A stretch of DNA of 33,605 bases from Gemmatimonadota bacterium. Its GTDB lineage: Bacteria > Latescibacterota > UBA2968 > UBA8231. The stretch lies in the NCBI GenBank assembly GCA_002712305.1, contig PATE01000010.1, forward strand, positions 1 through 33,605, read 5' to 3'. Position 1 is the stretch's first letter. Every line of letters starts with the position of its first letter. Below are positions 17,450 to 31,183 of the stretch, piece by piece. A program made the translations under genes and the position numbers. The notes beneath the pieces are model-generated. The model was not told where the DNA came from. It worked only from the letters and a program-made list of their open reading frames with translations, and did not search any database.

Positions 17450-20599
<3,150 letters not shown>

Positions 20600-20604
20600 G
20601 TCTG

Positions 20605-21261
20605 TCAAAGGTGGCAAACCGAGCAATCAGTGAGCTGCGACACGCGTACGTCGTATTCCTCGACCAGTTGAAGACCCTGGGCCTCCTGGTCTGCCGGAGG
20701 TGTCCAATGCACGTCGAACACGCGTTCCCGGGGACGGATGTGCTTTTCTGGATTACGATGGCAATCCAGGCACCATTCCATATTCAGGGCGTTTTCAACC
20801 CAGACGAGGGGCATCTCGTTGATCGCACCGTGACAGCTGGTGCATCCGATCCCTTTGGCGATATGGATATTGTGCCGGAAATAGACAAAATCGGGCAGGT
20901 CGTGAACCCGGTTCCACTGGAGGGGCTTCTCGTCTCGCCACGCAGTGCGAATGGGCTCGAGATTCGGTGCCTCGGTCCAGATGAGCGAATGACATGTCAT
21001 ACAGGTCTCGACGGGGGGAATACCCGCAAAGGCAGACTCCTCGACCGAGGTATGACAATATCGGCAGTCGATCCCGATGGCCTCGACGTGATGCTTGTGG
21101 CTGAAGGGCACTGGTTGGTCAATCGCAACACCAACTTCACTGACATAGTCGATACGATTGATGTTCAGAAGTATGCTGAACAGCAGCCCCGTCACGCCGA
21201 TGACGGCAATGATGGAGAACCGTGCAAGCCAATTGCTACTGCGATGAAAAACCTGCGCCAT
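20605..21261 (-). CDS. actA: Alternative complex III subunit ActA (pentaheme cytochrome c)
   Basis: Five CxxCH sites (CRYCH, CMTCH, CTSCH, CLDCH, CSVCH) after an N-terminal TM segment. Confidence 0.93.
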   Translation of the reverse strand: MAQVFHRSSNWLARFSIIAVIGVTGLLFSILLNINRIDYVSEVGVAIDQPVPFSHKHHVEAIGIDCRYCHTSVEESAFAGIPPVETCMTCHSLIWTEAPNLEPIRTAWRDEKPLQWNRVHDLPDFVYFRHNIHIAKGIGCTSCHGAINEMPLVWVENALNMEWCLDCHRNPEKHIRPRERVFDVHWTPPADQEAQGLQLVEEYDVRVSQLTDCSVCHL

Positions 21262-25587: not shown

Positions 25588-26028
25588 ATGACTGGCGAGA
25601 CCAGCTATCTATCCTCTGCTCTGCGATCAGAGTTGTGGTCGGCTCTCGGAGACCGTCTGCGTAGCGGCGGCGCCCTGTGCACGAATGGGGATTCCCTCGA
25701 TTCCCTTTGCGAGATCTACGAGGAGATCACTGGTGAGGTGGCACCGGACCTGGTTCGTGATGAGATCCGCGAGATGGTGGTGGCCGTAAATGAGGCCCAT
25801 CCCGAGACCTATCTTGCCAATGGTGTGCAGATTGGTCGGGTCGAAATGCGAGTCGCTGGTAGTTCTCGTCGCATTCCGACAAAGATCATGCCCGATCCCG
25901 AAGATCCTGAAAAGATGTGTATCGCCAATCGTGACTCCGATTCCGGCGAGGTCGTACCAGCCAATCGGCGTGGTGCGATTCGATATATCGAAAAGAGCCG
26001 CGACGACTCCTGGCGCGAAGGGCGCTGA
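25588..26028 (+). CDS. Hypothetical protein, first gene of a coupled three-gene operon
   Basis: 146 aa, immediately followed by GTG start of next gene (TGAGTG). No family recognised. Confidence 0.75.
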   Translation: MTGETSYLSSALRSELWSALGDRLRSGGALCTNGDSLDSLCEIYEEITGEVAPDLVRDEIREMVVAVNEAHPETYLANGVQIGRVEMRVAGSSRRIPTKIMPDPEDPEKMCIANRDSDSGEVVPANRRGAIRYIEKSRDDSWREGR

Positions 26029-27471
26029 GTGGCTGGCGACACGGCCTCCCACCCTGGCGTCGTATCACACCCCGCAACAATCGAACAGCTCAGCTTCGTG
26101 GGCTCCTGGCGTTGGAGGATCTTACCGGATTCGGTCTCCAACGCATTTCAGGACATCCTGCGTGCGGTCACCGACGAAACCGACCTCGCATCTGTAAATG
26201 AAGCGACGGCAGGTCTGATCGAGTGCCTTCAATTGTGTGGCCAGCCGTCCCTGCCGGATCTGTGCGTGGAGCGGCTCTTGAGCGACGACAGTCACCCCTT
26301 CGTCGTCGCCCTATCGCGTGACGAACATCCGGCTCCGCAGACACGACAGCTTTTCAGATATGATTTGAGACGTCTGCAGCTGCTCGCTCAGTCCCCGTGG
26401 ATTGAGTGGGTGACCAAGGCTGGGGTCGATTGGCTCAGTGCGTCCGTGGCGGACATTGAAAGGCAGGCGCCGGACTCGAACCATGCTCCCTGGCACCCCC
26501 ATGCGGCACGAGATCGCCTGAGCCAGTCCCTGGCAACCGCCGATGACTGGGGAGATCTCGTGGAGGATCTCGAGACCTTCTGGCGGCGTTTTGGTTGTGG
26601 CCAGCGGCAGGGAATCGTTGCCTATCGTCTCGAAGAGCACGCGGGGAAGGCGAGGCTGCGAGCGATCGAGAAATTCGATGCCTTCCCTATGGACTGGCTT
26701 CAATTCGAGTCGAGTCGTATCGGGGTAATCGAAGACAATACGCGATCGTTGCTGACGAACGACGAGGCGTCGAATGCGCTGATCTGGGGACCCAGAGGCT
26801 GCGGCAAGTCAACGCTGATCCGCGCCCTGGTGGGGCGCTACTGGGATCAAGGGCTGCGTGCAATCGAGATTCCTTCTGCCTCCTACGGGCAGTTGCCGGC
26901 CCTCTTCGATCTGGTCCGCCATCGCCCTGAGTCCTTCATCGCCGTGTTGGACAACATCGCCCTCGAACCACAGGATCCGGCACACCGAACGCTGGCGAGT
27001 CTGCTCGATGGCGGACTCGAACAGAGTCCTGCGAATCTCGTCTTCTACGCTACGTCCAACTACAAGGATCTGGTCGACCGGCACGGCGAACGGCCTGGTG
27101 GACCTCCTGCACAACAAGCTGATGCGGCAGTGGCGGCACGACTCGGCGGCGCCACAGAGCCGACCCTGGACGCGTACGATCCCCAAGGGCTGCAGAGACT
27201 GGATGAACGGAGGGCGCTGGACGATCGGTTCGCACTGAAGATCTTTATCGATCTGCCTACTCAGTCACAATACGAGAAGATCCTGCATGCCTATGCGCAA
27301 CGCGCGGGATTGACCGAATCATCCCAGGACCTGGTGGCAGACTTCCGCATCTGGCGAATGCGCCACAACCACGATCTGGTCGGTGGGCGCACGGTCAGGG
27401 ACTACGTCCGATACCGGGTCGCTGAGCGTGACAGGGATGACGCCGTCCGCCAGGAAGCCAAGGGCCCGTGA
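26029..27471 (+). CDS. DUF815-like AAA ATPase with unknown N-terminal region
   Basis: Walker A GPRGCGKST (26788-26814), VLDNIALEP, NLVFYATSNYKDL, LDDRFALKIFIDLPTQSQYEKILHAY match DUF815 pattern. Confidence 0.8.
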   Translation: MAGDTASHPGVVSHPATIEQLSFVGSWRWRILPDSVSNAFQDILRAVTDETDLASVNEATAGLIECLQLCGQPSLPDLCVERLLSDDSHPFVVALSRDEHPAPQTRQLFRYDLRRLQLLAQSPWIEWVTKAGVDWLSASVADIERQAPDSNHAPWHPHAARDRLSQSLATADDWGDLVEDLETFWRRFGCGQRQGIVAYRLEEHAGKARLRAIEKFDAFPMDWLQFESSRIGVIEDNTRSLLTNDEASNALIWGPRGCGKSTLIRALVGRYWDQGLRAIEIPSASYGQLPALFDLVRHRPESFIAVLDNIALEPQDPAHRTLASLLDGGLEQSPANLVFYATSNYKDLVDRHGERPGGPPAQQADAAVAARLGGATEPTLDAYDPQGLQRLDERRALDDRFALKIFIDLPTQSQYEKILHAYAQRAGLTESSQDLVADFRIWRMRHNHDLVGGRTVRDYVRYRVAERDRDDAVRQEAKGP

Positions 27472-28496
27472 ACCTCGACGCTTACTCCGAATTGCGGCAG
27501 GATGTAGAGAGCCAGTCCGTGAGGTCCATCAAGAGATTCCTCGACTACGGCAAGCGTGTCCGCCAGGACACAGGCCTCGATGAGATGATGCAGTGGATTG
27601 GTCGGGTATTGCACGACACGGATCAAGTGTATTCGCAGCAGGAGCGGGCGCAGGCTTTCATCGTCGGAGCTTGTGAATGGCTGGCCCGCCGTTGGCAGCT
27701 CGACCCTGGTCAAACGGCGGCGATGATCACCGTGATCGGAGACGTTGACCGAGTCCGACTGCTCCGATTACTCGTCACCGAGCACGATCCCGAACGACGT
27801 CAGGGATTGCAGCAATCTTTCCGGGACACTGATGCAAAGCTGGCAGGCTGGATCGAGGAGCGGGCTCTCCACGAAGACCCCCAAGATGAGGTCGATCTGG
27901 TGCATGAGGCGCCATTCCTACGATTCGTTGAGTCCCTGGAGCAGGTCGATCCACTCGTCGCCGACGGCGGCGACGATTTGGCAAAGGAGCTCGAGGAAGC
28001 CGAACAGCAGAAGATCCGTTTGGGAAGAGAACTGGAGGCTGCAAGCGAACGTGCTGAACGTGCGGTCCAACGACTGGAGTCGCTGGAAGAAGAAGCCAAG
28101 GGGCTGCGCAAGAATCTGCGCGATGAACGAGAGAATGGCGACAAGCTGCGTCAGGAGCGGACCAAGCGAATCAAGTTCGAGCGCGACGCACGGGAGGCGG
28201 GCACGCAGTTGCAGCGGCTGAAAGAAGAGTACGTCAAGCTGGATCAGCGCCTGCGGGAGTCGGTTCGCCGGCAGGGGAGCAAGAACCCGCCACTGCTGGA
28301 CCAGCTTCGTCAGATGTCGCCGGAGGATCTTTTAGGGGTTACGCAGCGCTCGGACGACGACATCGGTCAGGCGCGACGTCGATTAGCCAGTGTCTTCCAT
28401 TCCGATCGCGCAGCTCAATTGCCACCATGGGTAGCGGACCTCTTCGATCATCTACTCGGCCTCGTCAACGCGGCCTGCGACAAGGCGCGAAAGTAG
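27468..28496 (+). CDS. Coiled-coil protein with C-terminal J-domain-like region (HPD replaced by HSD)
   Basis: GTGA overlap with AAA gene; coiled coil about residues 165-270; C-terminus PEDLLGVTQRSDDDIGQARRRLASVFHSDRAAQLPPWVADLFDHLLGLVNAACDKARK aligns by eye with J-domains. Confidence 0.8.
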   Translation: MNLDAYSELRQDVESQSVRSIKRFLDYGKRVRQDTGLDEMMQWIGRVLHDTDQVYSQQERAQAFIVGACEWLARRWQLDPGQTAAMITVIGDVDRVRLLRLLVTEHDPERRQGLQQSFRDTDAKLAGWIEERALHEDPQDEVDLVHEAPFLRFVESLEQVDPLVADGGDDLAKELEEAEQQKIRLGRELEAASERAERAVQRLESLEEEAKGLRKNLRDERENGDKLRQERTKRIKFERDAREAGTQLQRLKEEYVKLDQRLRESVRRQGSKNPPLLDQLRQMSPEDLLGVTQRSDDDIGQARRRLASVFHSDRAAQLPPWVADLFDHLLGLVNAACDKARK

Positions 28497-28699: not shown

Positions 28700-28954
28700 T
28701 CAGGCGGCACGACCCATCATCTGATCAAGCCTTCGAGAGATCTGCGAAAGAGACAGACCTTCTGTCACTCGCATCTCGTGGATGAGGTGTTTGAGTAGAA
28801 TCACCTCAGCCATGTCGTACAGATCCTTGTTCCCGAGACAATCGGCAACCTTCAGTAGACCTTTCGACTTGTATTCCCGCATCTGATGAACGGACTTCCC
28901 AAACAGGCGAGCCGCATCCTCGATACCGATCAGCTTTGTCTTGCGCGCTGCCAT
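28700..28954 (-). CDS. MerR-like HTH transcriptional regulator, short
   Basis: GIEDAARLFGKSVHQMREYKSKGLLKVADCLGNKDLYDMAEVILLKHLIHEMRVTEGLSLSQISRRL; AAGGAG Shine-Dalgarno upstream of ATG 28954. Confidence 0.75.
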   Translation of the reverse strand: MAARKTKLIGIEDAARLFGKSVHQMREYKSKGLLKVADCLGNKDLYDMAEVILLKHLIHEMRVTEGLSLSQISRRLDQMMGRAA

Positions 28955-29052
28955 AGATAAAGACCTCCTTGTCTTTACGTGACACGTGCGGGGAGCTGTT
29001 ACCATGTAATACTAAGAATATCGGCGAATCAGGAGGGCTCTTGAGTCCTAAT

Positions 29053-29838: not shown

Positions 29839-30339
29839 ATGGCCAAGAAGGGCAGTCCTGCGACAGCCGATTCAAGCGGCACAAAACTGATTGCCCAGAA
29901 TCGCCGTGCACGGCATGACTACGAGATCATCGACACCTTCGAGGCGGGGATCGCGCTCCTTGGGACGGAGGTGAAGGCCCTGCGCGAGGGCAAGGCCAGT
30001 CTCGGCGAGGGCTATGCACGACTGGATCGCGGGGAGGCCTTTCTTTACAGCGTACACATCGGTCACTGTGCGGGGGGTAATCGTTTCAATCACGATCCGG
30101 AACGAGCCCGGAAACTTCTGCTTCACCGTTGGGAACTACAACGTCTAATCGGTAGCACGGAGGAAAAGGGGCTGACCCTGATTCCTCTGCGCCTGTATTT
30201 TCGGCGCGGACGCGCCAAGGTTGAGGTGGGCGTGGCTCGCGGGAAGCGACACTTTGACCGACGGCACGACATCGCCAAGAGAGATGCCGACCGCGCCGTC
30301 GAGCGTGCCCTGGCCAACCAGCGAAGAGATGCCGACTGA
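29839..30339 (+). CDS. smpB: SsrA-binding protein SmpB
   Basis: NRRARHDYEIIDTFEAGIALLGTEVKALREGKASLGEGYARL, LIPLRLYFRRGRAKVEVGVARGKRHFDRR. Confidence 0.96.
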   Translation: MAKKGSPATADSSGTKLIAQNRRARHDYEIIDTFEAGIALLGTEVKALREGKASLGEGYARLDRGEAFLYSVHIGHCAGGNRFNHDPERARKLLLHRWELQRLIGSTEEKGLTLIPLRLYFRRGRAKVEVGVARGKRHFDRRHDIAKRDADRAVERALANQRRDAD

Positions 30340-30340
30340 C

Positions 30341-31183
30341 ATGTCGAGTGAACCGACCGCCGCTGGCGCAACAGGTCGTGTGCCCTGCCTGCAGTGTGGA
30401 GGGCACGGGGTCATCTACAACCCTCACGTCGAGGTAGGACGCTTCGGGCACCTAGAGATCTGTACATGTGTCCAGTGCCAGTGTGGGGGGATCGCTCCTC
30501 ATATGTATTGGGACGAACAGTCTCAGCGTCGCTGGTGTGACTGCGCCACGCCTCGGCGCCGACTTGCTCACGTGAAGGATCTGTTTCGCCAGGCGGAGAT
30601 CCCTACGCGGTTTCGCTACAAGCTGAGGGACGATTTCTCCACGACAGGCCCCGACGGCAGTTCTCTGGATGTGGCGGCCCGTGTGAGCCCCATTCTGCAA
30701 TACCTGACAGCACTCGTGGATGATGATCGGGACCCTTCTCGAGGCTATCTCCTCCACGGCCCCCCGGGGACGGGGAAAACACTGCTCAGCTGTATCATTC
30801 TGAACGAATTGCTTCTTTATCGGGCTCGTCCGGGACGGCTTATCAACTTGTCTCGCAAGTTCTTCCAGCAGTTGCGTGACACATTTTCGCAAGACAGCGA
30901 GCAGTATGGGCGCAGCTTCCAGATCATGGACGAAATGTGCAACATCCCCTACCTGGTGCTCGACGATTTTGGTGTTCAGCGCGGCACCGAGTGGGAGACA
31001 GAAATGTTGTACGATCTGATCGACGCCCGGTACGGGGAGGAGAACTTCACGGTAGTTACCACCAATCAATCGATGGAGGAGATCGAGAAGATTTCGGGGG
31101 GGCGCATCCTGTCGAGGTTGGTGGAGATGTGCTACGTGGTTCCCATGACGGGGCAGGACTACCGCCAATACATGATCAACTAA
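30341..31183 (+). CDS. DnaC/IstB-type ATPase (putative replicative helicase loader) with Cys-rich N-terminus
   Basis: YLLHGPPGTGKTLLSC Walker A, YLVLDDFGVQRGTEWETEMLYDLIDARY Walker B/sensor, TTNQSMEEI; N-terminal CLQC, CTCVQCQC, CDC. ATG 30341 directly after smpB stop. Confidence 0.85.
   Translation: MSSEPTAAGATGRVPCLQCGGHGVIYNPHVEVGRFGHLEICTCVQCQCGGIAPHMYWDEQSQRRWCDCATPRRRLAHVKDLFRQAEIPTRFRYKLRDDFSTTGPDGSSLDVAARVSPILQYLTALVDDDRDPSRGYLLHGPPGTGKTLLSCIILNELLLYRARPGRLINLSRKFFQQLRDTFSQDSEQYGRSFQIMDEMCNIPYLVLDDFGVQRGTEWETEMLYDLIDARYGEENFTVVTTNQSMEEIEKISGGRILSRLVEMCYVVPMTGQDYRQYMIN

Follow-up and report, generated by a model that had tools for sequence, protein, structure and literature searches.

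The DNA analysed here (33,605 nucleotides, hereafter the window) comes from a Latescibacterota-type MAG and carries a three-gene operon in which a DUF815 AAA+ ATPase gene lies between a gene for a shortened copy of a larger protein and a gene for a coiled-coil protein with a J-like C-terminus. The reading that we prefer, tentatively and with less than even confidence, is that of an AAA+/J-like remodelling module, specific to this lineage, in which the gene-1 component has been damaged in the present genome. The locus offers candidate partners for a DUF815 ATPase, an inherited operon and a new domain architecture; moreover, close relatives with and without these genes provide a natural comparison, by which function becomes testable. 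The relatives are MAGs labelled as Candidatus Latescibacterota or, by their depositors, as Gemmatimonadetes/Gemmatimonadota. The features discussed are as follows.

25588-26028, plus strand: gene 1, 146 aa, internally deleted member of a ~617-aa family
25822-25831, plus strand: deletion junction in gene 1, an imperfect 10-bp direct repeat GGYGTSCAGA, here GGTGTGCAGA (nucleotide comparison)
26029-27471, plus strand: gene 2, 480 aa, GTG start abutting the gene 1 stop, DUF815 AAA+ ATPase
26071-26598, plus strand: N-terminal helical domain of gene 2, residues ~15-190, no family match
26788-26814, plus strand: Walker A GPRGCGKST of gene 2, residues 254-262, conserved
26935-26955, plus strand: Walker B region of gene 2, FIAVLDN-like, catalytic position Asn309
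27468-28496, plus strand: gene 3, 342 aa, GTG start overlapping the gene 2 stop, coiled coil with J-like C-terminus
27960-28277, plus strand: coiled-coil region of gene 3, residues ~165-270, many weak coiled-coil profiles
28332-28493, plus strand: J-like segment of gene 3, residues 289-342, with HSD at 28398-28406
28700-29005, minus strand: MerR/HspR-like protein, 101 aa, converging on gene 3

An inherited operon with a DUF815 ATPase and a J-like partner

The three reading frames and both junctions of the preliminary description were recovered at the same coordinates: the stop codon of gene 1 directly precedes the start of gene 2 (TGA then GTG, 26026-26031), and genes 2 and 3 overlap as GTGA (27468-27471). 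A sister genome of the same genus (G001) has the order cysS-gene 1-gene 2-gene 3, as in the window, with contacts at the same positions (TGA then ATG between genes 1 and 2, ATGA between genes 2 and 3), indicating that the genes owe their close packing to inheritance and not to chance. In other genera the contact between genes 2 and 3 is either a TTGA overlap (G007, G013) or a short gap. The three-gene operon is thus real. Upstream of the cysS-trio region, the window also carries alternative complex III-like genes (17450-21261, minus strand), which encode a multihaem cytochrome and a fused molybdopterin/iron-sulphur protein; gene 2 of G018 and G015 has these genes as its neighbours. On its other side, a DnaC/IstB-type ATPase that may be a helicase loader is encoded at 30221-31183 (plus strand), between smpB and rph in the relatives read there.

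As described earlier, gene 2 is a DUF815-like AAA protein. It matches DUF815 (PF05673) over residues 197-465 with 158.2 bits against a curated cut-off of 23.8 (E 2.6e-46), whereas its first ~196 residues match nothing; this N-terminal domain is all-helical in an AF2 model (mean pLDDT 78). Walker A, the sensor-1 Asn and the DRF arginine are kept, and the DD pair that closes Walker B in the 10 alphaproteobacterial DUF815 proteins compared is replaced by DN, as in 21/21 homologues of this bacterial family. AAA+ proteins with Asn in place of the catalytic Walker B acid are predicted to hydrolyse ATP weakly. Judged from these motifs, ATP hydrolysis in the gene 2 family may be slow or absent. Foldseek searches with the AF2 model of gene 2 returned AAA+ matches led by YjoB, then proteasomal ATPases, Bcs1, spastin and TRIP13. 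Bacteria and archaea commonly encode DUF815 ATPases, which occurred in 10 of 14 control genomes; in the literature searched, two papers name DUF815, each just in passing, as a gene label. New here are the N-terminal domain of this DUF815 AAA+ protein and its candidate partners, which are restricted to one lineage.

Gene 3 had been called a coiled-coil/J-like protein, which both kinds of evidence bear out. Profile searches gave coiled-coil-type matches only, and a profile-profile comparison placed the C-terminus over helix II and the HPD loop in J domains of its own phylum (29 columns, probability 92). The hhalign score of this segment was 36.7, the best of 40 column shuffles reaching 17.3. DnaJ (PF00226) gave no match in the window gene 3 at E<=10, and the best homologue (G003, E 0.053) stayed below the cut-off; we therefore call gene 3 J-like and do not file it among J-domain proteins. 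HPD is intact in 4/10 homologues (G003, G007, G013, G019), while the window and five others have HSD, so that classical stimulation of Hsp70 is doubtful here. It should be noted that the J-like domain of Magmas/Pam16 can regulate a J protein-Hsp70 pair even though it lacks HPD (PMC8605242).

Pfam, NCBIfam, PADLOC, PHROGs and the literature searched yielded no named system that covers the trio. Anti-phage models of PADLOC gave just weak P-loop and coiled-coil matches over the operon; an anti-phage system finds no support in PADLOC or PHROG matches, and a viral origin was rejected since no relatives of gene 2 were found among viral contigs. The profiles of the three genes do not resemble one another, and shared ancestry of the three with FliG was likewise dismissed by profile comparison.

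Gene 1 as a shortened copy of a larger family

The 146-aa product of gene 1 proved not to be an independent small protein: its residues 1-86 and 73-146 correspond, with 77% identity, to opposite ends of a single 617-aa protein of G001 (L058:4210-6063). The alignment shows a single in-frame loss of 471 residues, equal to 1,413 bp, and in G001 the 10-bp repeat GGYGTSCAGA of the junction borders the missing segment on either side. Full-length members begin with a helical region, followed by a variable linker, a second helical region in the centre and, at the C-terminus, a domain of ~70 residues; of these the window gene 1 keeps about half of the N-terminal helical domain (residues 1-78) and the complete C-terminal domain (residues 79-146), beta-rich in the AlphaFold2 model, the three regions thus not all being present.

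The earlier statement that gene 1 belongs to no recognised family is correct, and the absence of database matches follows from its being an internally deleted copy of a larger protein. Pfam, NCBIfam and PHROGs gave nothing, the one PADLOC match was sub-significant (Cas2e, E 0.016), and the full-length family has no Pfam match either. No recognisable DNA-binding or signalling domain was seen in gene 1. Its fold gave no Foldseek match, with a model of low confidence (pLDDT 59, from an alignment of five sequences), and no PDB sequence match. An intein-like insertion of ~470 aa in the relatives was rejected, because the middle region is also part of the full-length proteins encoded at unlinked loci.

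The retained ends of gene 1 show a dN/dS near 0.1 relative to G001, compared with about 0.18 for gene 2 (Nei-Gojobori; dS is high and the values are approximate). This low ratio means that the deletion is recent, that the short form is functional or that the assembly is in error. The last option, in which the true gene is full-length and the MAG joined distant stretches, concerns gene 1 only and is compatible with any of the readings of the trio; we hold it to be unlikely. The strong constraint on both ends is what one would expect of a gene intact until now, and several gene-1 paralogues of this MAG do lie at contig ends. However, the repeat is merely ~10 bp long and imperfect, probably too short to collapse a usual k-mer assembly, the missing middle was not found elsewhere in this MAG, and further paralogues are likewise frame-broken or without their middle (G000:C109:14761-15608, C48:11148-11558, C93:21-778 and C29:3163-3606). 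Overall, members of the gene-1 family seem to be in decay in this genome, the smaller of the two (4.8 Mb versus 7.1 Mb in the sister genome); the copy linked to groESL, split over two contigs, looks intact.

Distribution, lifestyle and neighbouring loci

The gene-1 family, often in several copies, was found in 15 of the 64 genomes searched across the phylum, all from one taxonomic family. Within the latter, 13 genomes carry gene 3, each together with gene 1; gene 1 alone is present in two incomplete genomes, and ten genomes have neither. Gene 3 is hence confined to genomes with the gene-1 family (13/15 versus 0/10); three further gene-3 matches, near E 1e-4 and over short stretches only, were discounted. 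Gene 2 is kept in 9/10 genomes lacking genes 1 and 3, indicating that it has a role of its own. The operon architecture assigned to the trio stands, but not the trio as an obligate unit, since gene 2 stands alone in these nine relatives. Mapped on the gene-2 tree, presence or absence needs two changes, forced by the starred branches, so that joint loss, or gain, occurred at least twice. A single clade (support 97/96) unites the trio-linked gene-1 copies of three genera, indicating that the linkage is old.

The distribution of FliG is exactly that of the gene-1 family (15/15 with, 0/10 without), and receiver-domain matches number 19-116 in genomes with the family versus 7-19 in those without. 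Co-loss of genes 1, 3 and the MerR genes thus goes with loss of motility and signalling. As it tracks FliG and receivers, co-loss cannot alone show that genes 1 and 3 act together, and a shared lifestyle may explain it; the phyletic pattern fits a motility or signalling programme equally well as protein remodelling. Several genomes without the module bear names suggesting sponge hosts, an origin that the literature searched did not confirm. FliG itself is full-length (all three checked have the N, M and C domains), multi-copy and dispersed in this MAG (G000), in G001 and in other f1 genomes, with 10 FliG_C matches here and 19 in the sister genome; the FliG loci read (L067, L199-L204) lie outside flagellar clusters.

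Two MerR genes accompany genes 1 and 3 in their distribution. The 101-aa MerR-like protein that converges on gene 3 has a close copy in 12 genomes and in 0/10 of those without genes 1 and 3. It is 79-95% identical among genomes with genes 1 and 3, far more conserved than the adjoining operon, which suggests a tightly constrained DNA-binding role. A second protein, MerR2, carries a receiver domain and is encoded one gene away from dnaK; its distribution parallels that of genes 1 and 3, with one partial match in G002.

Chaperone genes also adjoin parts of the module at other loci. A gene-1 paralogue stands head-to-head with groES-groEL in 11 genomes, this one included, making the family an unlabelled multi-copy family adjoining chaperonin genes. 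In G018, G015 and G020, which lack the family, the short-chain dehydrogenase gene of that locus and groES are direct neighbours, and no gene-1 match was found in the flanking DNA of the otherwise syntenic locus. G003 has gene 3 in a row with genes for MerR, a Cpn10 protein, FliG and FapA. No CIRCE or HAIR operators were detected in the upstream regions scanned, of groES (L158, L107, L110, L114, L118, L119, L121-L124, L179-L181) and of dnaK (L186, L187, L193, L194). Upstream of groES we observed up to three 15-bp palindromes resembling TTCTCAWWWTGAGAA, which occur with or without the module. Moreover, promoters of the sigma-54 type (TGGCAC-N5-TTGCW, most with 0-1 mismatch) precede groES and, wherever it was seen, dnaK; all five genomes checked for it carry the sigma-54 gene. 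Such promoters on heat-shock genes are worth a separate study.

Given these associations, a doubtful but serious alternative is a regulatory or signalling module of a free-living flagellated lifestyle, in which the gene-1 family, the MerR-like and the MerR-receiver proteins control motility and stress genes, while gene 3 and the DN-type AAA+ protein act as an ATP-gated scaffold or switch, not as a motor. The exact match with FliG, the higher receiver numbers, the receiver domain of MerR2 and the Walker B DN of gene 2 all point this way, as do an HTH-receiver protein encoded directly upstream of a gene-1 copy in G007 and G019 and histidine kinases near other copies. It leaves the J-like end of gene 3 unexplained, however; gene 1 has no recognisable domain of a regulator that binds DNA or signals, and the groES palindromes are independent of the module, with nothing similar found upstream of the trio.

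Rather unlikely, in our view, is that the three genes are neighbours without a shared complex, gene 2 being a housekeeping DUF815 ATPase and genes 1 and 3 accessory genes of motile lineages co-transcribed by chance. The retention of gene 2 where genes 1 and 3 were lost would fit, and so would the gene-1 copies of genus g4 and of G013, found on contigs other than those of genes 2 and 3, and the gene 3 of G003, which has neither gene 1 nor gene 2 beside it. Yet the overlap at the start of gene 3, seen in two genera, and the single clade of trio-linked gene-1 copies in three genera both argue for selection on the arrangement. With Walker B DN, the HSD motif and the confounding effect of lifestyle, the signalling-scaffold reading and that of unrelated neighbours stay alive.

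A candidate remodelling module and its nearest known systems

The remodelling reading, which we still prefer, is favoured by the DUF815 AAA+ nature of gene 2, which keeps Walker A, the sensor-1 Asn and the conserved Arg residues, and by the AAA+ matches of its predicted structure. The apparent J-like end of gene 3 and the inherited overlap of genes 2 and 3 add to this, together with the old linkage of gene 1 and the restriction of gene 3 to genomes with the gene-1 family. Moreover, the gene-1 copy at groESL, cleanly missing there in family-less genomes, MerR2 near dnaK and the neighbourhood of gene 3 in G003 (MerR, Cpn10, FliG, FapA) link these genes to chaperone loci. Against it speak gene 2 kept alone in nine genomes, the DN of Walker B and the HSD motif, the tracking of FliG and receiver number by genes 1 and 3, and the lack of mutual similarity among the three profiles; the groESL adjacency may also be mere inherited synteny. 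The protein-remodelling role proposed in the preliminary description is one that we, too, only infer.

In such a module, gene 2 would form an AAA+ ring whose helical N-terminal domain docks an adaptor. Gene 3, made from the overlapping start, would be this adaptor, its J-like end meeting the Hsp70 system or mimicking that contact. The multi-copy gene-1 family (~617 aa), whose copies adjoin groESL and two-component genes, would supply clients or client-recruiting subunits, and the window gene 1, minus 471 residues, would probably act at most via its intact C-terminal domain. The module might work inside a stress/motility programme of the free-living members. The reading frames and their overlaps, the AAA+ domain, the J-like similarity, the deletion in the assembly, the paralogues and their neighbourhoods and the common pattern of presence and absence were observed; that the products form a complex, act as adaptor and clients or have any link with motility is what we infer. 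In a bolder version, which we regard as distinctly unlikely, Latescibacterota would possess a dedicated AAA+/J-like machine, with an entirely new multi-copy client family, for the servicing of flagella or signalling complexes. Such a system, with its HspR-like and MerR-receiver regulators spread across at least four loci, would have been lost as a whole on at least two occasions.

Among known systems, HspR/MerR regulators share the small MerR DNA-binding fold with the 28700-29005 product, although the latter scores 20.3 bits against HspR (NF047375; cut-off 105) and the HAIR operator of HspR was not found upstream of groES or dnaK. Classic-clade AAA proteins (YjoB, Bcs1, TRIP13, spastin) have the AAA+ core fold in common with gene 2 (Foldseek E about 1e-5), but the likeness is confined to that core (TM about 0.3 over the whole query), the N-terminal domain is not shared, and gene 2 has Asn at the catalytic Walker B position. 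Closer are DUF815 proteins (PF05673), which share with gene 2 Walker A, the sensor-1 Asn (YATSN), the DRF arginine and a C-terminal-proximal GR(T/S/V)A; gene 2 differs in its additional helical N-terminal domain of ~196 residues, in DN for DD and in a longer stretch from sensor 1 to DRF. The pattern LLG-x(n)-RRRFAxxFHPDR of gene 3 falls on helix II and the HPD loop in J-domain proteins, from which gene 3 is set apart by its position below the Pfam cut-off, by HSD in the window and by a segment that ends a coiled coil; for the loss of HPD, as in the window gene 3, Pam16/Magmas offers a precedent (PMC8605242).
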